Shown here one piece after another: positions 28,002 to 64,000 of a DNA stretch of 64,000 bases (positions are counted from its first letter, which is position 1; each line of letters begins with the position of its first letter). A model generated the notes under the pieces. It did not search any database. It saw nothing but the letters and a program-made list of their open reading frames with translations, and had not been told where the DNA came from. The DNA lies in IMG/VR virus record IMGVR_UViG_3300034102_001587, positions 62,001 through 126,000 of that record, one strand, 5' to 3'. Source of the stretch: a virus. The position numbers were made by a program, and so were the translations under genes.

Positions 28002-28016
28002 TTAAACTAGAAATTG

Positions 28017-40000: not shown

Positions 40001-42167
40001 TACAGCATACCTTGTCAATCCTGCCGGAACAAATAGTAGATTGAATTCTGTAAGATTAGATAATCCTAATTACACTCCATATCAAAACTATATAAATTCT
40101 GATAACGCACCAATCAAAACTTGGAATGGTGCTTTAGTTGCTGGCTCTGACTATTATGGAGCAAACACATACACTGTAATCGTAACCAATGTTCCGCAAG
40201 ATTCCTATATGATGGGAAGTTTCACCATTGATTGGTTTGAAAACTATGGTTCTACAAACGCAAAAACATCAATTCAATTAGGTGGTTATTGGAACGCCGA
40301 AAGTAATAGTGGATTTATTGGATGGGAGATGACAACATCAAACCCATACATCAGACCTCAGGTGCAAGTTGCTAGACAGAACTCAACAGGTAAAACTGCG
40401 ATAATTTTAACTCACTATTCTTCAAACTATTGCCAAATAGTAGCAAGAGACCTATTCTTAGGTTATAGTGGTGGTGATGAAAGTTATGGTCGTGGTTGGG
40501 AAATTAGACAGGAAAGTAGTTTAGGTGGATATTCAAACTTTGATACGGTAGTACTACGTTCAGCACCTGCTAGAGATGGTGATGGTGCAAGTGGTACATG
40601 GCCAATTAGTATTACTGGTAATTCCAATTACGCAGTGTACGCATCATATTTAAACGCAGCTCAAGACTCAGCAGATAAAGCAGATATATCAACTAGAACA
40701 AATAGTGGATTCTGGCAAACATCAGCTCCATCATCTGGTTGGTATCCTGGTGCAAGTAGCTGGCAACATTTATTATCGGTAACACATAGTAACCCTGGCA
40801 ACTACTACGCAATGCAGTTGGCGGCATCGTTCTTCTCACAAGGATTATGGTATCGTTCAACAAATGGTAGTGGTGGAACTGGATGGCAACAAATAGTAAC
40901 AAATAGTGGAACTTGGAGTATAAATGTAACCGGAAATGCAGGAAGTGCCGGTTCGGTGGCAGGTACATATGTTGCAAACTCTGGTGGTGGTACGGGATAT
41001 ATCAACGCAAATCAGATATTCAATAATATGGGTAATAACCATGGTGCATATACTGATTTTAATAGTATCGCAAACTTGGGTGTATATTATGTTCAGGGTA
41101 GTGGAAACGGACCTGGTACTGGTGGAGGTCAATACTATGGAATGACCTTAGGTTTGGGTAATGAATACGGATTCCAATACGCAACACAAATTGCATGGAA
41201 TAGAACTCCAACAGGTGGTAATCCATACATTTCATTCAGATTTAGAGAAGGTAGTTCGTGGGGTGGTTGGACAAGAGCATATGTAGGATACGCTGATAGT
41301 GCTGGTTCGGCTGGTACAACAGATCAAGTTACTGTATTTGATACCAGAAGTTCAGTACAAGGACCTCAAACTGGTAATAGAAGGGTTAGATTTGATTTCC
41401 TTCAAAACTCAACCGATGGTTTGGGTGATGGTGGTACATATCACGGTGTAATGACATTCCAACAATGGCCTGATTCATCTGGTGGCGGTACTCGTCAATT
41501 AGGATTTACCGATAATAACAATCTTTGGATTAGAGGTAGTGGTGGTGGATTATCATCATATGGTGGTTGGAAGTTAATATCAGATAGTGGTAACTCTGTA
41601 ACTTATACAGGTATCAAATACCATTTAACAAATAATGGTGGGCAAGCTGTAAACAATTCAAATAGTGCAATACTTCAAGCATATTCTACTGGTAATAACT
41701 CAGCATTCATGTCATTCCATAAAGGTGGTCATTACGCTATTAATATGGGATTGGATGATGATAACGTATTTAGAATAGGTGGATGGTCTGCAGGAGCTAA
41801 TAGATTTGTAATGGATATGAGTGGTAACTTGACAATGGCAGGTAACGTAACGGCATATTCTGATGTTAGATTAAAAGGTGAGATTGAAACAATACCAAAT
41901 GCTTTAGATAAAGTTAATAAATTAAGAGGTGTAACATTCGTAAGAACTGATAAAGATGGACCTACAGGAAAACAAATGGGTGTTATTGCACAAGAAATTA
42001 TGGATATTGTGCCTGAAGTTGTAAGTAAAGATAATCTTGGTATATATAATGTAGCATATGGTAACTTAGCAGGTTTGTTTATAGAATCTATTAAAGAATT
42101 GAAAGCTGACTTGGATAGTGCTAGAGCAGAAATAAAAGAGTTAAAAGAGCAACTATCTAAAAAGTAA
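28017..42167 (+). CDS. Giant tail fibre with collagen-like segments and C-terminal S74 self-cleaving chaperone
   Basis: The protein has 4716 residues from ATG 28017 (a TTG three bases upstream is less likely). Residues about 1-280 have TGS repeats and one KFGD...DKHEFTGSV block. Residues about 282-1275 alternate four Gly-Ser-Ser/Thr triplet stretches with three copies of a 118-residue globular domain (IDNTDL, LTAWFDxWDD, VVVATGYYKIP). A knob follows (TGTTDNGVI, LTFDGTNL), then three TGQGxTEV...LMNQNxRTTD repeats and a long shaft with about eight DRxxTxYxxxPA motifs. The C-terminal 102 residues are a peptidase S74 intramolecular chaperone. Ser4615 begins the SDVRLK motif, with Lys4620 completing the Ser-Lys pair, so self-cleavage before Ser4615 is expected after trimerisation. 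The end is a coiled coil. It is probably a main receptor-binding fibre. Confidence 0.85.
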   Translation: MSFLGKNPNGLNQVSQSVIALTVDGIDQLSVSTSSVVINTSLNVRNSITASIISGSQITGSFSGSFVGDGKGITNISQINSGSNIINVSPNLINIVGNTQLTGSLNISSSISASLFKGDGSGLFNIPSDALGDLNKIKSGSAIAQISPNQGLQINVNTQISGGLGITGSEWISQNLVVGGDSRIVGNETILGNLAVGGRITSTELYTTFITSSVIFASGSTKFGDATNDKHEFTGSVAISGSFILSGSLNIQSSSLVDTNSQYVLVYNTTSGQVGFKYAAASSGTSGTSGTSGSSGSSGSSGTSGSSGTSGTSGSSGSSGSSGSSGSSGSSGSSGSSGSSGSSGSSGSGGSSGSSGSSGSSGTSGSGGSSGSSGSSGSSGTRGTSGSSGSSGSSGSTGSAGTSGSSGSSGSSGSSGSSGSSGSSGSSGSSGSSGQASGVKYNFTTSTTDVDPGTGVIAYNNGVIGSVSTLYIDNTDLSSNSLTAWFDGWDDSTTTSLRGTLTLASRDGGSVLNIFNVIGTVVVATGYYKIPVSYVSGTLPTNGAQLIINFVRTGNSGTSGSSGSSGSSGSGGSSGSSGSSGSSGSSGSSGSSGFGSSGSSGSSGSSGSSGSSGSGGSSGSSGSSGSSGSSGSGGSSGSSGSSGLGGASGSAGTSGSSGSSGTSGSSGTRGTSGSSGSSGSSGSSGSSGTPGSGGSSGTRGTSGSSGSSGSSGQAGSSGSSGSSGSSGVSGTGGSSGSSGSSGSSGSSGSSGSSGITGAGGSSGTSGSSGSSGSSGSSGTRGTSGSSGSSGSSGVSGAGGSSGSSGSSGSSGSSGSGGSSGSSGSSGSSGSSGGTGSSGSSGSSGSSGSSGSSGSSGSSGSSGQGGGIRYNFSTSTTDADPGTGTLVYNTATISSVGFIYIDNTDLSSNSLTAWFDSWDDSTTSTNRGQIVLASRDGGSVVNIFRVTGAVVVATGYYKIPVAYVSGTLPANGAQLIVQFSRSGDSGTSGSSGSSGSSGTRGTSGSSGSSGSSGSSGSSGSSGQSGSSGSSGSSGSSGSSGSSGSSGSSGSSGSSGSSGSSGQGGGIRYNFSTTITDTDPGTGIVKYNNGVIGSVSTIFIDNTDLGGNTLTAWYDTWDDSTTSTNRGYISLISRDSGTVVNVFRVNGAVVVATGYYKIPVAYISGTLPTNGAQLTVAFARSGDSGSSGSSGSSGSSGSSGTRGTSGSSGSSGSSGSSGSSGSSGSSGSSGSSGVSGSSGSSGSSGSSGSSGSSGTSGSSGSSGSSGSSGSSGSSGALSLTGTTDNGVITLNGSAPNGTVESNLTFDGTNLRVTGNTVITGNLTVSGTTTSINTQTLSTNDNIITLTGYATGSGAPINVDSGFEVVRNASPTRRFLWNEVNSRWASDANFYASGSITTTGGVFINADEGASSTVVFGNYERLVFNNSFSDVVRGPNKITTFNDGSAWIGGIGIHSDTQAYYAGGTHKWYKSTSQTAFTEQMNLDGSGNLNVLGNLVAAQVNTGQGLTEVHLMNQNVRTTDAVTFSTINTGQGVTEVHLMNQNIRTTDNVTFNQATITNGATVNGGRRVQGVSDGAVTALGATAYSGWYRIARSGLATAGNGLRGAAKVTVTSNGGFIAPAQDVIKLYKDWTTTALIGTVENYLGGLFTQFRVTMDADYAYLEGFLTSINLGGSSSWIVYVENYGLNPNQWTAYTENLTAGLGSPVASYTLAKINNGFTTPALSVAGNITLGGTIDTGQGATEVYLMNQNVRTTDDVTFNDLTLNGGDLFLSNGTSNRIVYNTNGVAAPTFTTRSAGTKMVLYSEIGASSVDYALGIEGNTMWYSVPVAGAARFFRWYGGTTNIATLDSAGKFTLVGNTATGIANNSFNVARTTLGTIHIANGGGTSGNNNQAAITFQGDTSTQAQAGIYVSNNSSSGTAMGFATTDSYGTGPQLFLTATNAGAVNFPRAIPTAQGTSLVTNNGGQWNIRAYPRRSDGTNVDFIYSAQSGQPTYVWGTNDGTNFYVWNPSNFSVTSATNASNVASGDVTSIGLNAAWTLPGTSISNGFRVYRYSDSATNKPASVDNANWLINIYSHPTGGTASYGHQLAATDNESIYFRSVINGSFGTWRTFLHSGNFNSYAPTLTGGGASGTWSINITGTAASETLATVTGRGATTSTLVYFNGAESIRVYGIRGQFTNEYMHLYNKVGIGHPGGWGQGEGNTPNTGLSTYGAVNLSYAAATNNTVLGSWNIDGSTINSTNDATLYVTATNNNDWGVVVNKYNGSASEYGLEVRVGAGASYGYSLLGNGTRWFYVSGIGDIYNDAIYDRSDTSYRLVYEGASRISRLNLNNARTSSSQRWPVGHFDVGEAVFEMDPTWTNDQLQAYFNSSNVSWVSDSTAPGGYAISIVGAVNVGGGYNSGFPYIAIDQDDVYYMECWIRNVSGTNGHYMGSMEYNESFGSPAGGQGNPGSFGYWVMSNTNPGTSWTKVTGYIGGFGGSVGQFEVGAKYWTPQALFNYTGGGTCYISGWKIIKVSVPANRTFRNEVTVNGTLNPNGQIQIRNTSPTITFRDTDHATGFIHVNSNIFYILRGNTDVGNGSWNTVGSGWWPLEINLTNNNAQFGGTVTAFYDVVAQRFVDRDSPGYILDPASTSNLNILETRGVVVNRDANTATATAGYLSFWTGNGTTSRAQFVRTDQLYGTHGAVTNQYAQYWLMDTTNRGWIFRYATSDTAGTNVFSIRNNDGRTTIGTSFSAGAGTRAQLNVSAGTGGTTQWRDIDIQGSWSAGEEHAITATHGSALGNIVGQMVFRHDSPGSRIRWGRLYASGDQSNYPMELISNNSGTGARLEMNVGSMRAPLFEDYDNVAYFLDLNAAASAWNRSLRTLGSITFSDDYTQYKGSMSTDDNWPLCTAPARIYTIGTLNAGGGNSSKIEIEVWGSHRGYTTTSYIEYKKWIVWVGDRISSNLVMSAGSQSNVGLWNGTNANGLLGINGDHVAAGWVLRLIVNPTCGAGVAYTVKVSYANLNMTHGPFSFTTTTAASIPLAPYHVSGTTATFPNGASVNGTFNLDSATVNNLSMTGNFQIRNTEPTITFRDTNHNTAYIHVNSNIFYVLRAGNDSAHGSWSTVNGYWPLEINLTNNNATFGANVTAINDMSAERFVDRNDPTYFINPAGDSITNGAFRTGNFLGMRTSYTFIPSSWARGSGTFMIGSSQNSDGTGWAYGTRLASVDYGDGLGLSFDPLYAGPTFYNNALFISGRSGRIGRIGMGGVTAPDYALHVAGTIYSDTEVRAPIFRDADGTGYFANFADTGTSINIAGSVNAATYNKPAILVNSSGTASSGAAFAIQQVTGEGWTGIFVDYEPYTGWGLYHDNPSNYFLITSEGSTGAIGGGITVPSRSSGNRTAYVKHRFDQNNGDLLVGGDLTVYGGDINIQKSGNYSYINFAAQSNDPGYIWHYESSNTARMFFSVSDDDGTNDYFGFGFSGDNQRLIIYSSGRLDAPIMYDRSNTSFYVDPASTSNLGELQINSQLTLSTPGAANSVGNINALWGMQKPMGYKIYWDEEFRYGSNSINIYNNNGGSAVTHTRRNSSFADGHSGPPNSSGYVIEIMHAPTTSAGTSPGYGGWYFATYTGPANRRLLCIFRMKIPSGRSVEWASNSIGSGGSARWLTSNAGTGQYQDYAFMVHSGNASWSSTHFFYIVGGSSATFYTYLASATVYDCSSLSEEGAMTYYAGESMRAPIFYDQDNTTYRVDPTGNSRMGRDIYVEGNTGGSFGNRVIVGATSTPYTLQDGNQRPTVYLRGNYPVLTLDHTVTSNTNHGPTIQFAHNGLSNRQWLVGTTGDGISMDIGFSNSSLGNSDFNPHNGIAGYLGTTFMRFRENGTIGLGSNGDWGAIGGGDPSYPLEFRGTHLNSHAALFRNNTNASNGAGFIFVSTYGNHSWGIVSEFRIDGTGGDRPSILFSQGYSGTTWSVGFGYNDDNFRIKQNHGHRNGGWGTDRFTIDTGGTGYFFGELQANQFTDRENTAYLVNPAGTNSRLNSVRLDNPNYTPYQNYINSDNAPIKTWNGALVAGSDYYGANTYTVIVTNVPQDSYMMGSFTIDWFENYGSTNAKTSIQLGGYWNAESNSGFIGWEMTTSNPYIRPQVQVARQNSTGKTAIILTHYSSNYCQIVARDLFLGYSGGDESYGRGWEIRQESSLGGYSNFDTVVLRSAPARDGDGASGTWPISITGNSNYAVYASYLNAAQDSADKADISTRTNSGFWQTSAPSSGWYPGASSWQHLLSVTHSNPGNYYAMQLAASFFSQGLWYRSTNGSGGTGWQQIVTNSGTWSINVTGNAGSAGSVAGTYVANSGGGTGYINANQIFNNMGNNHGAYTDFNSIANLGVYYVQGSGNGPGTGGGQYYGMTLGLGNEYGFQYATQIAWNRTPTGGNPYISFRFREGSSWGGWTRAYVGYADSAGSAGTTDQVTVFDTRSSVQGPQTGNRRVRFDFLQNSTDGLGDGGTYHGVMTFQQWPDSSGGGTRQLGFTDNNNLWIRGSGGGLSSYGGWKLISDSGNSVTYTGIKYHLTNNGGQAVNNSNSAILQAYSTGNNSAFMSFHKGGHYAINMGLDDDNVFRIGGWSAGANRFVMDMSGNLTMAGNVTAYSDVRLKGEIETIPNALDKVNKLRGVTFVRTDKDGPTGKQMGVIAQEIMDIVPEVVSKDNLGIYNVAYGNLAGLFIESIKELKADLDSARAEIKELKEQLSKK
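28860..31835 (+). repeat. Four Gly-Ser-Ser/Thr segments separated by three copies of a globular domain
   Basis: Triplet segments lie at about 28860-29318, 29682-30602, 30961-31197 and 31554-31835. Between them are three homologous domains at about 29328-29680, 30604-30960 and 31200-31553, each with YNF-x-T at the start, DPGTG, IDNTDL, LTAW-x-D-x-WDDST, SRD, VATGYYKIP and a TLP-x-NGAQL strand. The protein copies are close and the DNA copies partly diverged at synonymous sites. The design is rigid beads on a flexible triplet string. Confidence 0.85.
35617..37440 (+). repeat. Two-copy shaft repeat in the S74 fibre
   Basis: Segments at about 35617-35870 and 37186-37440 encode near-identical units: IRN(T)xPTITFRDT, HVNSNIFY(I/V)LR, WPLEINLTNNNA-x-FG, and FVDR followed by a PA turn. 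The strong similarity points to a recent internal duplication within the receptor-side part of the fibre. Confidence 0.75.
41859..42167 (+). other. Peptidase S74 intramolecular chaperone domain
   Basis: The last 102 residues of the 4716-residue fibre start at the TCT codon 41859-41861 (Ser4615) of SDVRLK. They continue through LRGVTFV, GVIAQEIMDIVPEVV and AYGNLAGLFIESIKEL into a heptad-like coiled coil. This is the usual S74 order. In known members, such as endosialidases, the domain folds the trimer and then cuts itself off before the Ser. Confidence 0.9.
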
Positions 42168-42175
42168 AATGAGTT

Positions 42176-42184
42176 ATATTTATT
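42176..42184 (+). promoter_or_regulatory. ATATTTATT element (8 of 9 match), candidate late promoter
   Basis: It lies in the 38-base gap between the S74 fibre gene and the 125-residue gene, 22 bases before the ATG at 42206. Seven of the nine intergenic copies in this window are in gaps this short, so the position, not only the sequence, is repeated. Confidence 0.35.
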
Positions 42185-42205
42185 TACAAAGAAAATATTA
42201 TTAGT

Positions 42206-42583
42206 ATGGCAAACACATATACATGGGAATTAAAGAGTTTAAGAAAAATGAACTCGGGTAGTTACGATAACATTATTTTTGGAACTACATGGGCAGTAAC
42301 AGCTACAGATGAAGATGGCGTAACAGGTACTTTTTCTGGAGCAACACCTTTTAGAGCAGATGAAATAAATCCTGACGAATTTGTACCATATAGTCAATTG
42401 AATGAGGAAATAGTATTAAATTGGATAAAGTATTCAGTAAGTGAATCGGCAGTAAATTCTTATTGGCCCCACATAGAAGGACAAATCCAAAAACAAATAA
42501 ATGATACAAAATTCCAAGTATCTACTGTTGATTATATGAATTTCCCTTGGACTCCATCGGGTTCTGGAACACCAACACCATAA
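42206..42583 (+). CDS. Conserved small phage protein, fibre-adjacent
   Basis: The protein has 125 residues. It starts TYTWELKSLRKM and continues with a W-x-V-TATDEDG strand, a FVPYSQLNEEIVLNWIK segment and a helix with IEGQIQKQIND, ending in FPWTP and a Gly/Ser/Pro tail. I know proteins with this YTWxxxxL, PY-x-x-L-x-E, VxxW pattern from T4-like marine phage genomes, where they are annotated as hypothetical. It lies alone between the S74 fibre and the sheath operon, with a promoter-like element before it and a hairpin after it. Its role is unknown; there is no catalytic motif, signal peptide or membrane segment. Confidence 0.55.
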   Translation: MANTYTWELKSLRKMNSGSYDNIIFGTTWAVTATDEDGVTGTFSGATPFRADEINPDEFVPYSQLNEEIVLNWIKYSVSESAVNSYWPHIEGQIQKQINDTKFQVSTVDYMNFPWTPSGSGTPTP

Positions 42584-42606
42584 ATTTATTAGATATTTTA
42601 ATAGTA

Positions 42607-42656
42607 AATGTTCAAAGCATGGATTTAATAATAGATTTGTGTTTTGAACATTTTCT
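42607..42656 (+). terminator. Possible terminator hairpin before the sheath gene
   Basis: AATGTTCAAAGCA (42607-42619) pairs with TGTTTTGAACATT (42640-42652), 12 of 13 positions with one G-T pair, across a 20-base loop. A short T-rich tail (TTCTTT) follows, then the promoter-like ATATTTATA. The long loop and weak stem make termination uncertain, so it could be an RNA processing or regulatory hairpin. Confidence 0.4.
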
Positions 42657-42658
42657 TT

Positions 42659-42667
42659 ATATTTATA
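42659..42667 (+). promoter_or_regulatory. ATATTTATA element, candidate promoter of the sheath operon
   Basis: This is an exact ATATTTATA copy within TTTATATTTATATAG, 59 bases before the sheath ATG. A TTTG lies 18 bases upstream of the TATATTTA octamer (42636-42639), which fits the Bacteroidota TTTG/TAnnTTTG layout with one mismatch. It is in the largest gap of the window and downstream of a hairpin, as expected for a strong promoter. Confidence 0.5.
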
Positions 42668-42725
42668 TAGGTAATTTGGTATTATAACCAAAACAACACA
42701 TTAAATAACAAATCGGAGAAATAAA

Positions 42726-55209: not shown

Positions 55210-55752
55210 ATGGGATTTACAATAACAGGTTCAAAATTTATTACTACTGTATATGGTGAACTTGATTCTTTATATGGGAGAATAGATTCTTTTAGATATA
55301 ATAGAAATTCTGGTAATTTAGTTACTACAATTGCACTTTATACAAATAGTAGAGGAGCAAAATCAAATGAATTAATAGAATATCCTGTTAATTTTATGGA
55401 TTATAATATTATTGGTGTTGATATTATGTTAAGTGGTTCTATGGAAACAATAACATATCCAACATTAATAAATATTCCACTCACATCATCTGCAAATGTT
55501 GAGGTGCCAATTTACACCAATCACATTACCAGTCAAAGTATAAGTTATTACGATTTTGATGATAATGGAGATGTTGTTGAAAAATTTAAATGGGAATACT
55601 TTTCACAATCTGTACAAATAGGAACAGAAATAAAAGAGCAAGATATATTAAATAAAGAACTTATTACAGGTAATGTTTTTCCATATATGTACAATGTAGT
55701 TACATCGGAGTTCAAAGGGATTTTTGGTGAAGAAAACGTAATAAATAGTTAG
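55210..55752 (+). CDS. Unrecognised beta-rich structural protein
   Basis: The protein has 180 residues. It opens with FTITGSKFITTVYGELDSLYGRIDSFRYNRNSG-type strands (about 3-35), then LVTTIALYTN, NIIGVDIMLSG and PLTSSANVEVPIYTN, and ends with a more helical 60 residues (SVQIGTEIKEQDILNKELI). No enzyme motif, membrane segment or signal peptide is seen. It is a baseplate-region gene 20 bases after the previous one and four bases before the next. A baseplate or short-fibre attachment role is possible from position only. Confidence 0.6.
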   Translation: MGFTITGSKFITTVYGELDSLYGRIDSFRYNRNSGNLVTTIALYTNSRGAKSNELIEYPVNFMDYNIIGVDIMLSGSMETITYPTLINIPLTSSANVEVPIYTNHITSQSISYYDFDDNGDVVEKFKWEYFSQSVQIGTEIKEQDILNKELITGNVFPYMYNVVTSEFKGIFGEENVINS

Positions 55753-55756
55753 TTAA

Positions 55757-56185
55757 ATGGCAAATTTTAGTATAGGTAGTTCTGTTCCAATGTCTACGCT
55801 TAGAGATGGGTTTGGATATGGTGGACCTAATATTGATATAGAAACTATTAAGGATACGGTATATCCTTATAGTGTTGGATTTAGAAGCTTAAGTGCATTC
55901 CAAAACCAAGGATTGTGGAGATATAGGATAATGCCTGATGATGGTTCTAGGGGATGGGTTCAAATGACTTACCCAGTTAATAGCGGTCAAATTTTTGGTA
56001 GTTATTTAAGCCCATGGTTTAGAAGTGGAGATTATCCTTACACATCAATATATGCACAAGGTATATATCCTTATAATTTTCAATATTGGTTTTATGAAGG
56101 TGGTGGTGTATTTTCGTATGGCTCTGCCCCAAATGTGAATTGGAATCAAAGTGGAGTTCTTAATTTAAGAGCGTATTTTGCATAG
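55757..56185 (+). CDS. Unrecognised Gly/Tyr/Trp-rich structural protein
   Basis: The protein has 142 residues and is very rich in Gly, Tyr, Phe and Trp: GFGYGGPNIDI, YPYSVGFRSLSAF, WRYRIMPDDGSRGWVQM, IFGSYLSPWFRSGDYPY, YNFQYWFYEGGGVFSYG. Such composition is seen in sugar-binding or interface beta proteins of virions, but I recognise no family. It is the last structural-looking gene before the glycosyltransferase cassette, so it might be a surface protein or a small tip. It starts four bases after the previous stop. Confidence 0.6.
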   Translation: MANFSIGSSVPMSTLRDGFGYGGPNIDIETIKDTVYPYSVGFRSLSAFQNQGLWRYRIMPDDGSRGWVQMTYPVNSGQIFGSYLSPWFRSGDYPYTSIYAQGIYPYNFQYWFYEGGGVFSYGSAPNVNWNQSGVLNLRAYFA

Positions 56186-56200
56186 TTATAAATAAATGTT

Positions 56201-57067
56201 ATGAAAGCTGTATGGGCGTATGGAAATAATGATTGGACCAAATCTTTTAAATTTTCAAAGTTAGAACTTATAACTGTATTTGCATCAATTACTTTGTGGA
56301 AAAAATTCTACCCAGAAGTTCCAACCTATTTGTATTGTGATGAATCGGTAAAAAAATATCTTACCGAAGTTGATTTACTTCAATTTTGGGATAACGTAGA
56401 TACATCCATTCACCAAACCCAAGACATTTATAATCGTAAAGCTTTTTGGACAATTGATAAAATACGATTGTTTCAACATTTAGAAACTCCATTTACTTTT
56501 ATGGATATGGATTTCTACATTAAAAAAAGATTATCGGACTATACTAATTATGATTATGTTTGTGCTTTTGCAGAAAACACAAAAAATTACTATCCACCAT
56601 ATTACGATAAGACTTTTAAAGAATTAAATTTTCCAAAAGAGTTTACATTTAAAGATACGGCACATAACACATGCTTTTTTTATGTAAGAAATTCGGATGT
56701 TGCAAAAAAATATACGGATATGTGTCTTTCATATATGAAGCAAATTAATGATAAAGAATTAACACAAGGGCATAGTGTATTTTTGGAACAAACAATATTA
56801 TATGAGTTAGCATTGGTAAATAATTGGAATTGGAATTTGTTAATGAATCAAAAGTTTAACGATGTTACGGGAAAATGTGACCCAGAAATAATAGAGGGAT
56901 TTTTAAGTCCAAAACAAACAGAAGAATATTATAGACATTTAAGTGTTGAGAAAATGTATGCAACAGAAGGAACTAACAAATTTTTAATTATAAAAGGTGA
57001 AATAATAGGATTAACAAAACAACATAATCCAGAATTACTTCCATTGTTACATAAACTATGTCAATAA
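56201..57067 (+). CDS. GT-A-like glycosyltransferase with DxD motif (DUF6734-like), copy 1
   Basis: The protein has 288 residues. The N-terminus KAVWAYGNNDWTKS, LITVFASITLWKKFYP and TYLYCDE form the start of a nucleotide-binding fold. AFWTIDKIRLFQ then TPFTFMDMDFYIKK carries the D102-x-D104 motif that in GT-A enzymes holds the metal and the sugar nucleotide. Later segments are NTCFFYVRN and HSVFLEQTILYELA. It resembles phage and bacterial proteins annotated DUF6734, and I treat that name as likely rather than certain. The next gene is a paralogue (same FWT-x-x-KI and D-x-D positions). No membrane segment is present, so it acts in the cytoplasm. It begins a run of overlapping genes, each stop lying inside the next start, which suggests coupled translation. 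Substrate is unknown. Confidence 0.6.
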   Translation: MKAVWAYGNNDWTKSFKFSKLELITVFASITLWKKFYPEVPTYLYCDESVKKYLTEVDLLQFWDNVDTSIHQTQDIYNRKAFWTIDKIRLFQHLETPFTFMDMDFYIKKRLSDYTNYDYVCAFAENTKNYYPPYYDKTFKELNFPKEFTFKDTAHNTCFFYVRNSDVAKKYTDMCLSYMKQINDKELTQGHSVFLEQTILYELALVNNWNWNLLMNQKFNDVTGKCDPEIIEGFLSPKQTEEYYRHLSVEKMYATEGTNKFLIIKGEIIGLTKQHNPELLPLLHKLCQ

Positions 57068-57987
57068 AAGCAATACATATAAATTGGACTAAACCATTTT
57101 TTGAAAAAGATAGGTTACGAGGACATGGATTTAAAGTTTTTAAAAACAACAAATCAAAAGAGTATTCATTACCAACTTATCAAATATTAGTTACTAAACT
57201 TTCAATATTAAATTGGAAAAAGTGGAATGGGCCTATAAAATTGTACACCGATAGTATTGGTAAAGCATATTATGATGCGATTGGTTTGTTAGAACTTTAT
57301 GATGAAGTTGATACTGATATATTAGATAATTACAATGATGTAGATGCTGCATATTTTTGGACAAGTGGTAAAATAAATTGTTTACAATATGAAACTGAGC
57401 CATTTGTTTTTATAGATAATGATTTTATTGTAAGGGAAAAAATAAATGAATATAGATTAAAACAATTTGACTTAATAATAGGATATTGGGAAATACCAAG
57501 AGGATATTATTATTTTACCAAATACCAATTTCAGAAAGAAATTAAACATTGCCGCTTTCCTGAAAACTATAATTGTAACTCATTAACGCCAAATACATCA
57601 TTTATGTATTTTAATAATTTGAATTTGGTTAAAGAATATGTTAATGCACATTCTAAATTGGTTGATAATAAAGGGGTTGAAGTTCCTGAATGGTTTTGGT
57701 TAATGACAGACCAAGGTATATTAGGACATTGTATAAGAGAAGGTAACTACAATGTGGGTACAATTACAAATAGAGTATTTTTAAGTGATAGTGACCACAC
57801 CGATTCAACACAAAGATACAAAGGAATGTCAGAACCTTGGTTTCAATTTATTGACACGGATAATGTAGATAAATTTAGTTGGGAGCATCTTTGGTATTTA
57901 AAAGCACATTTTAACGATGATAAAGAAATGATGTTAGAGTATTGTAATCGTTATAATAAAGAAATAAAAATGTTATGCAGTTTATAA
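57058..57987 (+). CDS. GT-A-like glycosyltransferase with DxD motif (DUF6734-like), copy 2
   Basis: The protein has 309 residues and is a paralogue of the previous protein. Shared landmarks are IHINWTKPF, SILNWKKWNGPIKLYTD, YFWTSGKINCLQ and EPFVFIDNDFIV with D120-x-D122, then NTSFMYFNNLNLVKEYV and a W-L-MTDQGILGHCIRE helix. The divergence is large, so the two probably differ in sugar or acceptor rather than being redundant copies. The start overlaps the previous gene by 10 bases and the end overlaps the next by 13. It is cytoplasmic, with no signal peptide. Donor and acceptor cannot be told from the sequence. Confidence 0.6.
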   Translation: MSIKAIHINWTKPFFEKDRLRGHGFKVFKNNKSKEYSLPTYQILVTKLSILNWKKWNGPIKLYTDSIGKAYYDAIGLLELYDEVDTDILDNYNDVDAAYFWTSGKINCLQYETEPFVFIDNDFIVREKINEYRLKQFDLIIGYWEIPRGYYYFTKYQFQKEIKHCRFPENYNCNSLTPNTSFMYFNNLNLVKEYVNAHSKLVDNKGVEVPEWFWLMTDQGILGHCIREGNYNVGTITNRVFLSDSDHTDSTQRYKGMSEPWFQFIDTDNVDKFSWEHLWYLKAHFNDDKEMMLEYCNRYNKEIKMLCSL

Positions 57988-58739
57988 GAATATTTTGGGG
58001 AGATTATAATAGATACGAAAAACAAATTATTGAAGCTAAAAAAGATAATTTAGATGAAAAGGTATTTGTATGGGGATACGATAACTATGTTAAGCTAAAA
58101 GAGTTGGGATACAATTGTGATTTGATAGATATGCAACCATACGATTATACAATAGCTAATGCACATACGTTTAAACATCATAGAAGTTTGATTCACAAAA
58201 TAAAAGGAATTGATATAGCAATGGAAACATATTCCGAAATTGTTTTTTTAGATTGGGATGTTAGAAAGATAAAAGAAATTGATGATAACTTTTATAAATT
58301 ACTAAGAGATAGAGAATGTGATTTACAAGTTCCATTATACACCTATCCAACCAAAGCATTTGATTATTTATTGAATAATATTAAAGATGATTTAATGCAA
58401 AAGTTTTTTAAAAAACTAAAATTGTTTATAGAAAAATACTCCTACACAAAAGAGGGTAATTATATAATACCAAACACCGGATTTTTTTATTGTGCCGATA
58501 AAACAATAGTAGAAGATTTATTAGAAATAATAGATGAGTATAAATTACAAACTGTTCCAGATGAATTATCAGTATTTATATTTTCAAATGCAGATTTTGA
58601 TAGTTACATAAAAAACTATGAACCATTAGTTATTGGCGCAAAACAACATGGTTATGATTGGTGGAACGAAGAAGAAAATGATTTAGAAAAGTATAAATTA
58701 AAAACATTAAAAAAAGAAATATATTTTGAACATCTTTAA
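57975..58739 (+). CDS. Putative glycosyltransferase with DWD motif, copy 1
   Basis: The protein has 254 residues. IRIFWGDYNRYEKQI and KVFVWGYDNYVKLKELGY start the fold. Residues 89-95 IVFLDWD give a D93-x-D95 motif, followed by KEIDDNFYKLL, as expected for the metal-binding loop of a GT-A enzyme. Later landmarks are IIPNTGFFYCADK and DELSVFIFSNADFDSYIKNY. The protein at 62450 is a clear paralogue sharing all of these. It is more distant from the two preceding DxD proteins but probably of the same fold. Overlaps with both neighbours are 13-14 bases. Substrate is unknown. Confidence 0.55.
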   Translation: MQFIRIFWGDYNRYEKQIIEAKKDNLDEKVFVWGYDNYVKLKELGYNCDLIDMQPYDYTIANAHTFKHHRSLIHKIKGIDIAMETYSEIVFLDWDVRKIKEIDDNFYKLLRDRECDLQVPLYTYPTKAFDYLLNNIKDDLMQKFFKKLKLFIEKYSYTKEGNYIIPNTGFFYCADKTIVEDLLEIIDEYKLQTVPDELSVFIFSNADFDSYIKNYEPLVIGAKQHGYDWWNEEENDLEKYKLKTLKKEIYFEHL

Positions 58740-59286
58740 AACATATGTAATATCATTAAGAAGGGATAAAGAACGTAGAGATTGGATGCTATCAATAAAA
58801 GATAAGATAGGATTGAATTTTGATTTTTTTAATGCGGTAACTTCCGAAGATATTACTGAAGTTATAAAAAATGCATATTTTTCACATACCGATTTTCACG
58901 AATGGAATATTGATGATAAAGCAGTGATGGCAACTTTTATGAGTCATATTAGTTTACTTAATATGGCAGTAAAATCTAAAACAAATTTATTGGTTATTGA
59001 GGATGATATAGATATTGTAAACTCATTTGATTGGAATTCTATAAATTTCGATGAGTTTGATTTATTTAGTTTAGGAACAAAATTTGGATGTTATGCTTAT
59101 TTTGTTTCTTATAAAGGAGCAGAAAGTATATTAGAACATTTTTCCAAAACGAAAATTACTCAGGCATATGATTGGGAGTTAGCAAAAATTAATCATCTTA
59201 ATTTTAAATTTGTAGATGAACCTGTATTTGTACAAACCAATAAATTTGTTTCAAACATAGCACCAAATGGATACCAAAAAAAATAG
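58726..59286 (+). CDS. GT25-family glycosyltransferase
   Basis: The protein has 186 residues. FKTYVISLRRDKERRDWM at the N-terminus is the signature opening of family GT25 (LPS and glycoprotein sugar transferases), FDFFNAVTSED follows, and LLVIEDDIDI (residues 88-96) is the acidic metal-binding motif. SLGTKFGCYAYFVSYKGA matches the conserved GxxGYxxS-type region. The start appears to be TTG at 58726, overlapping the previous gene by 14 bases; no ATG is available before the conserved opening. GT25 enzymes commonly add galactose to LPS or collagen-type hydroxylysine, but the sugar and acceptor here are unknown. It lies within the glycan cassette, directly before the carbamoyltransferase. Confidence 0.75.
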   Translation: MNIFKTYVISLRRDKERRDWMLSIKDKIGLNFDFFNAVTSEDITEVIKNAYFSHTDFHEWNIDDKAVMATFMSHISLLNMAVKSKTNLLVIEDDIDIVNSFDWNSINFDEFDLFSLGTKFGCYAYFVSYKGAESILEHFSKTKITQAYDWELAKINHLNFKFVDEPVFVQTNKFVSNIAPNGYQKK

Positions 59287-60949
59287 TTATATAATTGGAG
59301 TATCGGCTTATTATCACGACTCATCTGCATGCCTGTTTAAAAATGGCGAATTAATATTTGCCTGCGAAGAAGAAAAATTTACAGGCAAAAAGCATGATAG
59401 TTCATTTCCATTTAATTCAATACGATATATTTTTAAAACATATAAATTATCAAAAAAAGATATTGACGTAGTGTGTTATTATGAAGACCCAAAACTTAAA
59501 TACAAAAGATTAATTCAAAATTTTAAAAATAATTGGTATAGAAGTTTTTGGTATTGTGTAAAGTCTATAATCGGCTTTAAAATAAAAATGATAACTTGTA
59601 AAAACAATTTAGAATTAGTATCTAAAAACGTATTTTATTCAGACCATCATAATTCCCATCTATTTTATTCTTATTATACTTCAAATTTTGATAATGCGAT
59701 AGGTTTAAGTGTAGATGGTGTTGGTGAATTTGATACAACAACTTTTTGTACAATAGAAAATGGTGTCCCTGAAAAAAACACAATTGCAGAGTATCCACAT
59801 TCGTTGGGTTTATTTTATTCAGCGATGACTGCATTTTTAGGATTCAAACCAAATGAAGGTGAGTATAAGGTAATGGGATTGGCAGCTTATGGTAATCCAA
59901 ATGTTTATATGGATAAAGTAAAAAAATTAATATCTTATGAAAATGGTACATTAAAATGCAATATGAAAGTTTTTTGTTGGGATAGAGAAGATTCTTCAAT
60001 GTTTAATGTTAAGTTATGCGAATTGTTGGAAATAGAACCCAAAGATACAAATTTACCAATAGTTCAAATTCATAAAGATTTGGCTGCAGCTGTACAACTA
60101 AACTATGAAAACATATTAATTAAAATTCTTAATGATTTGTACAAAAAATATGAAATAAAAAACTTAATATTAGGGGGTGGTTGTGCATACAATGGTTTGG
60201 CAAATGGAAAAATTTTAAAAAGAACAAAATACAAAAAATTGTGGATACCAGTAGCACCATCCGATGCTGGTTCTTGTGTTGGAGCTTGTTTAAATTATTT
60301 GGCTTCTAAAAATAAAGTATATAAAATAACACCAAACCCATTTTTAGGTCCTTCGTATTTGTATAATAATGTAATCGAAGCAATAGGAAAACTGAAATAC
60401 AAACAATTTACATCTGAAGAAAAAATGTTAAAGGTTGTTGCAAAATTATTATGGGAAGGTAAGATAATTGGGTGGTATCACGGACACAATGAATTTGGAC
60501 AAAGAGCATTGGGAAATCGTTCAATATTGGCAAATCCTTTTATAAATGGTGTAAAAGATAAAATAAATAATATTATAAAACAAAGAGAAAATTTTAGACC
60601 ATTGGCACCTGCAGTAATTGTAGAAAAACAAAATGAATATTTTAATACAATTGGTGATGTACCATATATGAATAAAATTGTTAATGTTAAAAGAAAATAT
60701 AAAAAACTTTTAAAAGAAGTATCAAATGTAGATGGAACAGCTAGAATACAAAGTGTAAATAAAAATACATTGTTTCACAAACTATTATTAGAATTTGAAA
60801 TATTATCGAATCATCCTATTCTTTTAAATACATCATTTAATACAAAAGATAGACCTATGGTTTTGACACCAAAAAACGCAGTAGATTCATATTTAAACAG
60901 TGATATTGATTTGTTAATTATTGGAAATTTTATTATATATAAACATTAA
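59267..60949 (+). CDS. O-carbamoyltransferase, NodU/TobZ family
   Basis: The protein has 560 residues, the usual size for the family. The N-terminal Kae1-like domain (1-350) starts IGVSAYYHDSSACL, and has EEEKFTGKKHDSSFP, the metal-binding His pair H127-x3-H131 (SDHHNSH), LSVDGVGEFDT, LGLFYSAMTAFLGFKPNEGEYKVMGLAAYG and LILGGGCAYNGLANG. The C-terminal YrdC-like domain carries GWYHGHNEFGQRALGNRSI and then NFRPLAPAVIVE, which in TobZ help form the carbamoyl-adenylate site. Known members transfer a carbamoyl group from carbamoyl phosphate to a hydroxyl of a sugar or antibiotic. Next to five glycosyltransferase-like genes, a sugar hydroxyl is the likely acceptor. It overlaps the GT25 gene by 20 bases. 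Confidence 0.88.
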   Translation: MDTKKNSYIIGVSAYYHDSSACLFKNGELIFACEEEKFTGKKHDSSFPFNSIRYIFKTYKLSKKDIDVVCYYEDPKLKYKRLIQNFKNNWYRSFWYCVKSIIGFKIKMITCKNNLELVSKNVFYSDHHNSHLFYSYYTSNFDNAIGLSVDGVGEFDTTTFCTIENGVPEKNTIAEYPHSLGLFYSAMTAFLGFKPNEGEYKVMGLAAYGNPNVYMDKVKKLISYENGTLKCNMKVFCWDREDSSMFNVKLCELLEIEPKDTNLPIVQIHKDLAAAVQLNYENILIKILNDLYKKYEIKNLILGGGCAYNGLANGKILKRTKYKKLWIPVAPSDAGSCVGACLNYLASKNKVYKITPNPFLGPSYLYNNVIEAIGKLKYKQFTSEEKMLKVVAKLLWEGKIIGWYHGHNEFGQRALGNRSILANPFINGVKDKINNIIKQRENFRPLAPAVIVEKQNEYFNTIGDVPYMNKIVNVKRKYKKLLKEVSNVDGTARIQSVNKNTLFHKLLLEFEILSNHPILLNTSFNTKDRPMVLTPKNAVDSYLNSDIDLLIIGNFIIYKH

Positions 60950-60952
60950 TGT

Positions 60953-61066
60953 ATGAGAATTTTAAAATGGATATTTGAAAAAATAAAAAAATATCAAACT
61001 AGAAAAAGATTGAAAACAAAAATAAAAGAGCTCAAAAAAAGAGACCCATTCACATACCCACATTAA
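60953..61066 (+). CDS. Small basic protein, 37 residues
   Basis: From ATG 60953 this frame encodes MRILKWIFEKIKKYQTRKRL and a C-terminal half ending KKRDPFTYPH, stop at 61066. It is highly basic, with one amphipathic helix and a short D-P-F-T-Y tail. It fills the 118-base gap between the carbamoyltransferase and the first SGNH gene exactly, ending one base before the next ATG, as the coupled genes around it do. Short phage proteins ending in KKRDPF(I/T)Y are familiar to me from other genomes but have no known function. Nothing suggests an enzyme. It could bind nucleic acid or membrane surfaces. Confidence 0.55.
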   Translation: MRILKWIFEKIKKYQTRKRLKTKIKELKKRDPFTYPH

Positions 61067-61067
61067 T

Positions 61068-61772
61068 ATGATAAATAAGTTATATACATATGGTTGCTCG
61101 TTTTCATCTGATTGGTGGATTAATGAAGAACAAACTTATACAGCTTTAGTTTCCAAACAATTGCGATGTGATTACATAAGAAGAGCCGAGCCGGCAATAT
61201 GTAATAACGAAATATATCATAGACTTACTAAAGATTTTGAATTATTTAATGAAGGGGATTTTATTATATACCAATTTACAGCATTAGATAGAGGTGGTTA
61301 TTGGGTAAATAACGATTCTTTATATATAACAACATCTTTATTAACAGAAGATATAGATATGAATACTTTAGTTTTAAATGAGTGGGGAGTTGGTAGAGAA
61401 AAGTATGAAATATCTGATTCTGATTTAATTAAATTATTGGATTATAATAATGTTTGGGAAAAGCATTCTCTATTTTACAAATATAATATTGTACACAATA
61501 CTTTGGAATTTTTAAAAGAAAAATATAATGTAAACTATGTTATGTTGTTTTTAGATAATTATTTTCAAAAATTTTGCACAAACAATTATATAGAATTTCC
61601 AATAGAAACAAATTCAAAAAGTGTATCTATAAGAGATTGGGTAGTTATGAATAATTTAACAATAGCAGATTCAAATCCAATTAGACCTAAATGGGATACT
61701 CACCCAAACGAAAAAGCTCAATACCATATAGCTTCTAAAATTTTAAAATTTATAAAAAATGAATGTAAATAA
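61068..61772 (+). CDS. SGNH-fold hydrolase/acyltransferase-like protein, copy 1
   Basis: The protein has 234 residues. LYTYGCSFSSDWW places Ser11 in the G-x-S nucleophile block at the end of the first strand. FIIYQFTALDR has the position of the second block, and WDTHPNEKAQYHIA near the C-terminus supplies Asp210 and His212 of the D-x-x-H/D-x-H block. This arrangement is that of SGNH esterases and O-acyltransferases. Phage proteins opening with Y-x-x-GCSF are usually annotated as SGNH/GDSL-like. The next gene is a tandem paralogue. No signal peptide is seen, so it is cytoplasmic; in the glycan cassette it might add or remove an acyl group on a sugar, which is inference. Confidence 0.65.
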   Translation: MINKLYTYGCSFSSDWWINEEQTYTALVSKQLRCDYIRRAEPAICNNEIYHRLTKDFELFNEGDFIIYQFTALDRGGYWVNNDSLYITTSLLTEDIDMNTLVLNEWGVGREKYEISDSDLIKLLDYNNVWEKHSLFYKYNIVHNTLEFLKEKYNVNYVMLFLDNYFQKFCTNNYIEFPIETNSKSVSIRDWVVMNNLTIADSNPIRPKWDTHPNEKAQYHIASKILKFIKNECK

Positions 61773-62463
61773 AATTTACATATATGGTTGTTCTTTTTCT
61801 GTAAACTTTTGGATAGGTGAAGAAAACATTTACCCAAATTTATTATCAAAACATTTTAATGTTGAATATATTAATAGAGCAGATTCTGCAACATGCCATA
61901 ATGAAGCTTATTTACGATTAACAAATGATTTAAAAAATTTTGAAAAAGATGATTTGATTGTTTATCAATTTACATCATCGGATAGAGAAGGATATATGGT
62001 GAATGACGATTCACTATATTTCACAACAGCAGCATTAACTAAAGATTTAAAAAGATTTGCTTGGATATTGGATAGATGGGGTAAGGGAAGAACTACATAT
62101 AAAGTATCGGATAAGCAATTGGAAATATTATTGGATTATATGGATGGTTGGGTATGTCATACTAAATTTCACAAATTTAACAGAGTTGTAAATACTTTAG
62201 AATTTTTAAAAAATAAAGTTGGTGTAAACTATTGTTTATTATTTTTAGATGATGGATTTGAAAAATATAAAAATCCAAATAAAATTGTTTTTCCTATTAA
62301 AAAAAATAAAAATAATAATTCTATTTTAGATTGGGGTGTTGAAAATAAATTTACATTAGGAGATAGTAGACCAAATGAAGTTCCATATGATAGCCATCCC
62401 GATGAAAACGGCCATTATGGTATATTTGAAAATATAATAAAAAAAATAGATGAAACCAATTAA
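61759..62463 (+). CDS. SGNH-fold hydrolase/acyltransferase-like protein, copy 2
   Basis: The protein has 234 residues and the same length and layout as the previous one: IYIYGCSFSVNFW with Ser12, a VYQFTSSDREGYMVNDDSLY segment, NRVVNTLEFLKNKVGVNYCL, and YDSHPDENGHYGI with Asp211 and His213. Both genes keep the full presumed catalytic set, so both are likely active. The pair arose by tandem duplication and has since diverged widely. It overlaps the previous gene by 14 bases and the next by 14. Differences between copies are spread along the chain, which fits different acceptors rather than simple dosage. Confidence 0.65.
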   Translation: MNVNKIYIYGCSFSVNFWIGEENIYPNLLSKHFNVEYINRADSATCHNEAYLRLTNDLKNFEKDDLIVYQFTSSDREGYMVNDDSLYFTTAALTKDLKRFAWILDRWGKGRTTYKVSDKQLEILLDYMDGWVCHTKFHKFNRVVNTLEFLKNKVGVNYCLLFLDDGFEKYKNPNKIVFPIKKNKNNNSILDWGVENKFTLGDSRPNEVPYDSHPDENGHYGIFENIIKKIDETN

Positions 62464-63244
62464 AGTTATACGAGCACTTTGGGGCAAGAATTTTGCTATT
62501 CATAAAGAAATTCCTAAATCACCTATATTCAAAGATGAATTAGTTTTTGTATATGGAATTAAAAATGAACAATTTCTAAAAAATTTAGGATACCAAACTA
62601 AACTTATTGGCTATGATGAAACTTTGGAAAATGTATATGATAATCATTTAAAACATTATGGTCATAAATTGGAAGTAATAAAGATGGCTGAGGAAATGTT
62701 TGATGAATACCTTTTTTTAGATTGGGATGTTGGTGTTGTTAAAAACATTGATAATAATTTTTGGCAATTAATACGAAGTGGAAATAATATACAATGTCCA
62801 ATATATGCCTATAACAAAAATTATAGAAATGATATTTTAGAATACTACAAACAAAGAGGAACTCTTACAAATCACATAGATGAATTTTTAAAGTATCATA
62901 TAGAGGGACTAAAAAAATACAGTTGGCAAACAGATGATTTATATGTTTTACCAAACTTTTGTTTCTTTTATTCAAACAAAACTAATTCAGCATCCGAGTT
63001 ACATAAACTAATGGTTGACAATAATTTAGATACTTGTATTGAAGAATTTGCTATGTGGTTATTTTCAAATTGTTCACTAGAGGAATATGTATTAAAGTAT
63101 GAACCATTTGTAATAAGAGGAAAAGAAAAAGATGTGAACTTACCAAATATGGATTGGGCTTTCAAAACGATAAACCAATATGTTGGTGAACGAGTAAAAA
63201 AAGAAATTTATTTATATCATGAACTTCAAACAACCACTAATTAA
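62450..63244 (+). CDS. Putative glycosyltransferase with DWD motif, copy 2
   Basis: The protein has 264 residues and is a paralogue of the protein at 57975. IKVIRALWGKNFAIHKE, ELVFVYGIKNEQFLKNLGY, YLFLDWDVGVVKNIDNNFW (D91-x-D93), VLPNFCFFYSNK and EFAMWLFSNCSLEEYVLKYE line up one to one. The two copies are separated by the GT25, carbamoyltransferase, small basic and SGNH genes, so the cassette has been built by duplication and insertion rather than a single tandem event. It overlaps the SGNH gene by 14 bases and the oxygenase-like gene by 26. Donor and acceptor are unknown. Confidence 0.55.
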   Translation: MKPIKVIRALWGKNFAIHKEIPKSPIFKDELVFVYGIKNEQFLKNLGYQTKLIGYDETLENVYDNHLKHYGHKLEVIKMAEEMFDEYLFLDWDVGVVKNIDNNFWQLIRSGNNIQCPIYAYNKNYRNDILEYYKQRGTLTNHIDEFLKYHIEGLKKYSWQTDDLYVLPNFCFFYSNKTNSASELHKLMVDNNLDTCIEEFAMWLFSNCSLEEYVLKYEPFVIRGKEKDVNLPNMDWAFKTINQYVGERVKKEIYLYHELQTTTN

Positions 63245-63926
63245 ATCGGACAAAGATAATCTTTATTATCTAGCTCCTATTCCAGTTCTTCGTAAAGAAT
63301 ACGATGATAAACAATTGCATGATTCGGTCTATGTTTATGGTTATAATAAATTAAACAAAACAGAAAAGAAAATGGGGCAGGAATTGCCTGAAAGATATGA
63401 TGAACAAAGGCAGGCAACATATGAAACAAACGATAATAGTGATATGTGGGTTGAAGATACTGAATTTAATCCAATAGGTAGTAGATTTCATACACCACCA
63501 AATAATTTTTTGGATGATGAAAACGAAGGTGTAAAAATAATCAGAAAAAGAATTGAAGATAGTTTTTTTGAACTTTTAGATTCTCTGGAAATACCGCACA
63601 ATCATCAATGTAAAATAACCGAAAGTTGGATACAATATTATGACCCATATGAGGGTAGGGGACACAACCAACATAATCACTGCCGTTGGAAATCCGATGA
63701 AGAACCTAAAGTTGGGTTTAGTGGTGGATATTATCTAAGTGATGGTGAACCGCTAAAAGACCACCCATACAGCGGAGCATTTTGTTTTCACCTAAGAGGT
63801 ATGTCACATTTTGTAAGACCTAAACAAGGAATGTTAATGTTATGGCCAAATGATATAGTTCATTCGGTAAAACCTTTTTATGGTAAAAAACACCGATGTG
63901 TAATTAATTTTAATTTGGAAATCTAA
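63219..63926 (+). CDS. 2OG-Fe(II) oxygenase-like protein
   Basis: The protein has 235 residues. The C-terminal 105 residues show the double-stranded beta-helix pattern of phage 2-oxoglutarate/Fe(II) oxygenases: ITESWIQYYDPYEGRGHNQH with His152/His154 in the first metal block, FSGGYYLSDGE, then GMLMLWPNDIVHSVKPF with His215 and a KKHRCVINFN end with Arg226 for 2-oxoglutarate. The first 110 residues are a separate, polar part (RYDEQRQATYE, FNPIGSRFHTPP). Such proteins are common in T4-like marine phages, with substrate unknown. As last gene of the glycan cassette it could hydroxylate a protein side chain or sugar before modification. The His-x-His first block is slightly unusual against the common His-x-Asp. 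Confidence 0.65.
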   Translation: MNFKQPLIKSDKDNLYYLAPIPVLRKEYDDKQLHDSVYVYGYNKLNKTEKKMGQELPERYDEQRQATYETNDNSDMWVEDTEFNPIGSRFHTPPNNFLDDENEGVKIIRKRIEDSFFELLDSLEIPHNHQCKITESWIQYYDPYEGRGHNQHNHCRWKSDEEPKVGFSGGYYLSDGEPLKDHPYSGAFCFHLRGMSHFVRPKQGMLMLWPNDIVHSVKPFYGKKHRCVINFNLEI

Positions 63927-63958: not shown

Positions 63959-64000
63959 GGGGATGTTTTGGAATTGATTGCGATGCGAAACATAGTATCA
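63959..64000 (+). ncRNA. ssrA: tmRNA (ssrA)-like RNA, 5' end only
   Basis: The last 42 bases start GGGGATGTTT, then TGGAATTGATTGCGATGCGAAAC. Aligned with the E. coli tmRNA 5' end (GGGGCTGATTCTGGATTCGA and then TTTGCGAAAC), the GGGG-x-TG acceptor strand, the TGG-A-TT-GA segment and TGCGAAAC all match with two one-base gaps. tmRNA frees stalled ribosomes and tags the unfinished protein. The tag sequence and tRNA-like 3' half lie beyond the window, so the call cannot be completed. It follows the oxygenase-like gene by 32 bases and has its own promoter-like pair. Confidence 0.65.

Follow-up and report, generated by a model that had tools for sequence, protein, structure and literature searches.

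Candidate two-tier O-glycosylation of serine-rich fibres in a T4-like phage

The viral DNA studied here (the window, 64,000 nucleotides) comprises bases 62001-126000 of the 136,291-base IMG/VR record IMGVR_UViG_3300034102_001587, and the remaining record was examined too. The window carries a cassette of glycan-modifying genes and two giant fibre-like genes rich in Gly-Ser/Thr triplets. Judging by the genes, we consider it somewhat probable that this phage attaches O-glycans to its own serine-rich fibres by a two-tier system, the first tier encoded by a locus outside the window that includes a TibC-family enzyme, and the second by the window cassette, which is part of an exchangeable island. 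An earlier examination of the window (the original prediction) had proposed that the cassette serves fibre self-glycosylation, with altered host surface glycans as the main alternative. The record encodes a gp23-type capsid protein, a tail sheath and a T4 gp19-type tube, and the virus is a T4-like myovirus, probably of a Bacteroidota host; such a host fits the cassette genes, at which no Shine-Dalgarno sites are visible.

The first-tier locus lies at contig 40829-44546 ("contig" denotes positions in the whole record) and encodes a GT4-methyltransferase-GT25 protein, a TIGR04414 protein and an adenylyltransferase resembling RfaE domain II. The TIGR04414 protein (contig 43000-44157) is a homologue of TibC and Aah that matches the family model over its full length (positions 14-373 of 374; E=7.6e-87; 291.7 bits, with the cut-off at 200) and matches the TibC structure 4rap in the PDB with E=5e-53. 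TibC itself glycosylates adhesins, using ADP-heptose to place heptose on their serines (PMC4358343). The equivalents of D110, K230 and W305, which include the catalytic base, are invariant in every sampled phage homologue that spans these positions, the donor-site position 226 is T or S in 110 sequences, and the four iron-finger cysteines are present in the protein of this phage and in all sampled homologues but one. The gene after the TibC homologue encodes the RfaE-domain-II-like protein, a putative ADP-heptose adenylyltransferase; in contigs L389 and G193, HldE is split into kinase and adenylyltransferase genes, which are found close to TibC. Since the TibC homologue is about 70-77% conserved in 78 viral contigs, where it stands beside terminase genes, its gene is core to this phage group. 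In two phage fusion proteins checked by Pfam, a GT4 domain is linked to the TibC (GT9-like) domain.

The most likely acceptor would be the collagen-like Gly-Ser/Thr triplets of the two giant proteins (Table 1). If only stretches of at least six triplets are counted, these proteins contain 569 Gly-X-Y triplets (1,707 residues); with runs of at least three the count rises to 1,962 residues (935 Ser and 186 Thr), close to the "over 2000" given before. Position X is Ser or Thr in 92% and position Y is Ser in 81% of the triplets, and Pro and Lys are nearly absent. The fibre at 28014-42167 also has collagen and Peptidase_S74 matches, the latter being a trimeric fibre chaperone. The triplet codons are diverse and 30-base repeats are rare, which indicates that the pattern is kept at the protein level. 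Within 21468-25469 the triplets use GGC and AGC more often than the remainder of the gene does, and contain few long DNA repeats, as if DNA repetition were avoided and the protein repeat kept.

The association of TibC-family genes with such fibres was measured in 50 viral contigs of 40 kb or more, picked by a scan for Gly-(Ser/Thr)-(Ser/Thr) DNA that was blind to TibC. In these triplet contigs, which were the first rows of the scan listing and are fragments, TIGR04414 was detected in 24/50 above the cut-off and in 25/50 at E<=1e-3, whereas it was found in 0/50 contigs that share a random 14-mer and in 0/50 contigs with collagen-type Gly-Pro-X DNA, many of these controls being shorter. When only contigs of at least 80 kb were compared, the difference was 15/19 triplet against 0/13 control contigs (p=7e-6). 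The two features are also physically close: in 18 of the 24 contigs no more than 10 kb separates TibC from a triplet array, nearer than expected for random placement (Kolmogorov-Smirnov p=2e-5), and a triplet open reading frame (ORF) lies at most five ORFs from TibC in 18/21 loci examined. The two genes overlap in L387 and are 32 nt apart in L146. The 32-kb contig G190 carries a triplet fibre that is 55% identical to the fibres of this phage, a TibC fusion 67 nt away from it and the cassette type, all within about 25 kb on one strand. A TibC match and triplets also occur together in Microcystis phage Mel-JY01 and in the 735-kb phage LR756501. The Gly-Ser/Thr triplet pattern has over 1,200 overlapping matches in LR756501, which encodes a TibC homologue. 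Because of the family function, the conserved residues and this linkage, a TibC-type start of O-glycans on serine-rich fibres is fairly well supported.

Several observations weigh against this assignment. The sugar-binding R286 of TibC is conserved in the bacterial autotransporter heptosyltransferases (BAHTs) studied, but it is Val in this phage and its clade, and R occupies this position in 9/33 distant phage TibC homologues. Therefore, we treat the TIGR04414 protein as a family homologue and not as a proven heptosyltransferase. The target repeat of TibC, the strand-loop-strand repeat TIGR04415, was not found in the giant proteins scanned; the locus may work like autotransporter heptosylation, which is marked by an ADP-heptose donor, a ring dodecamer and transfer to Ser, but we do not file it as such. 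In this phage TibC lies about 40 kb from the triplets; in this clade it adjoins a different giant fibre-like gene (contig 32386-40500, 2704 aa), whose protein may be the real target. Moreover, TibC occurs in G196 and LR756504 without detected triplets, the controls were unmatched for host or lineage, and the families of the window cassette as a set are not enriched in triplet contigs. The contigs of the relatives G203-G205 do not span the terminase/TibC region and were dropped as a TibC-negative control. The proposed fibre self-glycosylation has gained strong new support from a TIGR04414 locus associated with triplet genes, although this locus lies outside the window and the cassette families do not share the association.

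The candidate second tier is the cassette (Table 1). All ten predicted ORFs are present on the plus strand, and the nine enzyme-like genes form the overlapping, co-directional unit that had been described: at seven of the nine junctions the genes share 10-26 nt, and gaps of 1 and 3 nt separate them at the remaining two. The four proteins predicted to be DxD glycosyltransferases fall into two pairs. One pair (56201 and 57058, 27% mutual identity) matches the glycosyltransferase-like family DUF6734, and the orphan pair (57975 and 62450) has a DWD motif that is invariant across 12 relatives and resembles GT-A enzymes at the level of a distant relative. Structure prediction, which had been suggested as a check, gave an AlphaFold model with a predicted local distance difference test (pLDDT) score of 92 for the orphan glycosyltransferase, and its Foldseek matches are GT-A enzymes, namely UGGT (E=6e-5), glycogenin and a PBCV-1 capsid glycosyltransferase, at template modelling scores of 0.4-0.5. 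The model thus suggests a GT-A fold with DxD, distant enough for a new family. The predicted GT25 enzyme, NodU/TobZ carbamoyltransferase and 2-oxoglutarate (2OG)-Fe(II) oxygenase-like protein all have Pfam matches. The N- and C-terminal domains of the carbamoyltransferase score 204.7 and 188.7 bits, both above the Pfam thresholds, and its closest PDB relatives are O-carbamoyltransferases. The oxygenase scores 28.6 bits against a Pfam threshold of 27 and is below the cut-off for TIGR02466; its HxH and distal His are invariant, and it is the best-kept member of the cassette, with 54-68% identity in distant phages. The SGNH assignment relies on motifs and a weak model: the GCSFS and DxHP blocks are invariant in four sequences, the model is poor (pLDDT 65), and its best match, the GDSL protein 4rw0, is weak (E=2e-3). 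The 37-residue gene found no support, as the ORF has no Pfam or PHROGs family, no visible ribosome site and no homologue that we could see. None of the cassette enzymes has hydrophobic helices, which suggests that they are cytosolic.

No bacterial relatives of the SGNH pair and the orphan glycosyltransferase family were present in the genome contigs searched, close viral relatives of the carbamoyltransferase and the first glycosyltransferase came from the same virus only, and the phage collection contained no relatives of the proteins at 57058, 57975 and 61068. Relatives of cassette genes were recovered in 13 other contigs. What recurs there is a trio of one DUF6734 protein, one orphan glycosyltransferase and the 2OG oxygenase; the carbamoyltransferase, SGNH and GT25 genes are variably present. 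In L408, L413, L414 and L415 the trio lies downstream of the sheath, the tube and a tail-type gene of about 900 aa. Near the cassettes of L403 and L406 there are islands with genes that, from their sequence starts, appear sulfotransferase-, flavin-halogenase- and further oxygenase-like.

Table 1 Features of the window and its right-hand boundary (positions in the window)
Position	Strand	Feature	Evidence
12294..25913	+	Giant protein resembling a fibre, 4539 aa; most triplets at 21468-25469; candidate O-glycan acceptor	
28014..42167	+	Giant fibre, 4717 aa; Gly-Ser triplets at 28866-31841; C-terminal Peptidase_S74; candidate O-glycan acceptor	
55210..55752	+	180-aa protein, no family; missing together with the cassette in relatives	
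55757..56185	+	142-aa protein rich in Gly, Ser and Tyr, no family; accompanies the cassette	
56201..57067	+	DUF6734 (PF20508) glycosyltransferase-like protein, DxD motif FMDMDF	Pfam E=4e-9
57058..57987	+	DUF6734 glycosyltransferase-like paralogue; member of the trio conserved in other phages	E=2e-11
57975..58739	+	Orphan glycosyltransferase, invariant FLDWD (DxD), predicted GT-A fold	pLDDT 92 model
58726..59286	+	GT25 glycosyltransferase, short, aligns to the first half of the profile	Pfam E=2e-14
59267..60949	+	NodU/TobZ-type O-carbamoyltransferase, both domains, GW...ALGNRS motif	Pfam, PHROGs
60953..61066	+	37-codon ORF, doubtful gene	No family match or visible ribosome site
61068..61772	+	SGNH/GDSL-like protein, Ser and Asp-His blocks	Motifs, weak fold match
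61759..62463	+	SGNH/GDSL-like paralogue	49% identical to 61068-61772
62450..63244	+	Second orphan GT-A-type glycosyltransferase; member of the conserved trio	34% identical to 57975-58739
63219..63926	+	2OG-Fe(II) oxygenase (PF13759/TIGR02466-like)	Pfam, PHROGs
63959..64000 (contig 125959-126348, past the window end)	+	Start of the phage transfer-messenger RNA (tmRNA) gene; right boundary of the island	

The cassette had been described as joined to a structural operon. It is indeed on the same strand as the structural genes, with a gap of 15 nt, but it is part of an island (55210-63926) that also includes the two small proteins at 55210-56185 and is placed between a baseplate-type gene and the phage tmRNA gene. 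In relatives with the same gene order (764-aa gene 41-50% identical), the baseplate-type genes lead directly to the tmRNA or the gene after it, and in L543 and L545 a single GT2 gene occupies the site (L543:12641-13594). Since the site is either empty or holds one GT2 gene in sampled relatives, it is variable and the cassette is its cargo, and we conclude that the cassette is an accessory, exchangeable island and not a fixed part of the structural operon. The 180-aa protein has a distant homologue (24%) within a glycosyltransferase island of phage L411. The tmRNA of the relative L541 matches Rfam RF00023. This RNA, which also occurs in L534, L541 and L544, has a long tag ending in ADYAVAA or FDYAVAA; its position, after the baseplate-type genes and before the following gene, is conserved in relatives and marks the edge of the variable island.

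The co-occurrence of carbamoyltransferase and DxD genes with triplet fibres, as formerly envisaged, is seen only in part. We rejected the carbamoyltransferase as a marker of triplet fibres (4/50 triplet contigs against 0/27 controls, p=0.29), and also DUF6734 (0/50 against 0/27, in a search that had no positive control). Among distinct carriers of the trio of at least 30 kb, on the other hand, four of eight have triplet fibres, compared with 0/43 controls (p=3e-4), and TibC is present in four of eight, with one match falling slightly below the cut-off.

Taken together, these data suggest the following pathway. In the first tier, the TibC-family enzyme would act as an O-heptosyltransferase and place the first sugar on fibre serines in the cytosol, with the putative ADP-heptose adenylyltransferase and the GT4-methyltransferase-GT25 protein as partners. 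In the second, the GT-A, DUF6734 and GT25 enzymes of the island would lengthen the glycan, the NodU/TobZ enzyme would carbamoylate it, the SGNH proteins would attach or remove acyl groups, and the 2OG oxygenase might oxidise a sugar or a partner protein. The original suggestion that the oxygenase hydroxylates the target is unsupported, and hydroxylation of the triplets as in collagen was rejected, since Pro and Lys are nearly absent from them. We infer that the island extends and decorates the fibre O-glycan from its gene content, its cytosolic character, its co-direction with late genes and its co-occurrence pattern; being exchangeable, it would determine which type of glycan the particle displays outermost. 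Acceptor, sugar, sequence of steps and benefit are likewise proposals, and fibre hiding, tuning of adsorption or stabilisation of the triplet rods may be among the benefits.

The island may instead alter host surface glycans (lipopolysaccharide or capsule) independently of the TibC locus, and so prevent superinfection or help virions to leave the cell. T4-like cyanophages and pelagiphages often carry NodU-type carbamoyltransferases, which are usually treated there as surface-glycan genes, and the related islands L403-L406 contain genes that look epimerase-, sulfotransferase- and nucleotidyltransferase-like (named from their sequence starts); the lack of enrichment of the cassette families in triplet contigs also agrees with this explanation. 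However, the island has no membrane-spanning flippase, polymerase, bactoprenol glycosyltransferase or membrane acyltransferase, it is co-directional with late structural genes, the trio is directly 3' of tail genes in a second phage group, and triplet fibres, like TibC, occur in half of the long trio carriers. We regard a role at the host surface, which was the alternative named at the outset, as unlikely, though deserving serious weight.

Both loci could also glycosylate other virion proteins, such as the fibre at contig 32386-40500, the proteins at 55210-56185, the tail tube or the capsid, and the triplet fibres would then be bystanders typical of large aquatic phages. The position of TibC next to the 2704-aa gene, the small proteins that travel with the island, the TibC carriers in which no triplets were detected, and the known capsid and tail-tube glycosylation of mycobacteriophages (Freeman 2023, cited in PMC12619734) speak for such targets; yet the TibC-triplet association is strong, specific and physically close, and is missing from Gly-Pro-X contigs, which makes the bystander explanation improbable. 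Hypermodification of phage DNA, in which hydroxymethylated bases would be the substrate of the carbamoyltransferase and glycosyltransferases and the 2OG enzyme would be TET-like, is suggested by a related carbamoyltransferase that modifies 5-hydroxymethylcytosine (5hmC) in phage DNA (PMC8670742). In that study, the DNA-carbamoyltransferase clade co-occurs with thymidylate-synthase-type genes, whereas the enzymes of unmodified contigs neighbour glycosyltransferases. We noticed no thymidylate-synthase-type gene near the cassette or related loci, in a contig that lacks most DNA-metabolism genes. The oxygenase is PF13759/TIGR02466-like and not of the TET/JBP type, and the carbamoyltransferase appears to keep W, G and R at the spacing of TobZ W408, G421 and R423, the positions that differ most between the groups. 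With the DNA enzymes sitting beside thymidylate-synthase-type genes and the oxygenase belonging to another family, DNA hypermodification is very improbable.

As to the record itself, a second assembly is 100% identical to the right-hand part of the window, and it is therefore unlikely that the gene arrangement is an assembly artefact. A scan for promoters and terminators gave signals at or below chance. At the start of the record there is a TonB-dependent-receptor-like gene (PF07715, PF14905; L004:1-2412, 5' end open) with a 70% homologue near 1887 in the 207-kb relative contig G203, possibly a phage-encoded receptor homologue. Runs of small genes at L004 6568-7959, L568 and L570 encode proteins that start with MIKLTNIL.E or MKHIKLFEEFVNEA; these starts recall the capsid-targeting leaders of T4, and the proteins could be packaged internal proteins.

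Gly-Ser/Thr low-complexity repeats are common in aquatic phage fibres, and their role is unexplained. If the TibC link holds, they would be scaffolds for glycosylation, and viral self-glycosylation would reach well beyond mycobacteriophages, with a testable basis for phage surface variation. It is conceivable, at slightly less than an even chance, that this is a widespread phage system, in which TibC-family enzymes, often fused to GT4 and with ADP-heptose genes of their own nearby, densely glycosylate the serines of giant, collagen-like Gly-Ser/Thr tail fibres, and exchangeable islands give each phage its own outer glycan type, as the phage equivalent of serotype switching. The proteins are also candidates for enzymes that glycosylate simple repeats densely at their hydroxyl groups, and Mel-JY01 is an isolated phage for tests. 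The literature searched contained no paper on phage O-heptosyltransferases and no description of exchangeable decorating islands or of the pairing of a TibC-type enzyme with Gly-Ser/Thr fibres in phages; what is already known is TibC in bacteria and, in mycobacteriophages, the glycosylation of virions by enzymes of the phage.

The NodU-like or "LPS (lipopolysaccharide) gene" clusters of T4-like cyanophages share the carbamoyltransferase family (27-31% identity) and the myovirus setting, but here the trio of DUF6734, orphan GT-A and 2OG proteins and a TibC-type starter are encoded in the same genome. Glycosylated collagen-like proteins elsewhere, including mimivirus, are modified by GT25 collagen galactosyltransferases and 2OG hydroxylases. 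This phage likewise combines GT25, a 2OG oxygenase and a collagen-like Gly-X-Y protein, but hydroxylysine chemistry cannot apply, because its Ser/Thr-rich triplets have nearly no Lys or Pro. The 5hmC carbamoyltransferase of phages found by MetaGPA (PMC8670742) is also a PF02543/PF16861 enzyme in a phage, but the neighbours here are glycosyltransferases and not thymidylate-synthase-type genes. Mycobacteriophages glycosylate virion proteins with phage-encoded enzymes (Freeman et al. 2023, cited in PMC12619734). Common to both systems are phage glycosyltransferases for structural proteins of the particle, a role that is proposed in our case from genes; the hosts differ, the acceptors there are the C termini of capsid and tail-tube proteins, and the available part of that source reports no TibC-type starter. 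With the TibC/Aah BAHTs (TIGR04414; PDB 4rap and 4rb4), the phage proteins share the full-length match, the catalytic Asp, Lys and Trp, the four iron-finger Cys, an ADP-heptose-type adenylyltransferase nearby and Ser-rich acceptors, which are candidates in the phages. They differ from them in the loss of R286 in this phage and the lack of a detected known target repeat, and the phage versions are often fused to GT4 and encoded beside collagen-like triplet genes instead of autotransporters.

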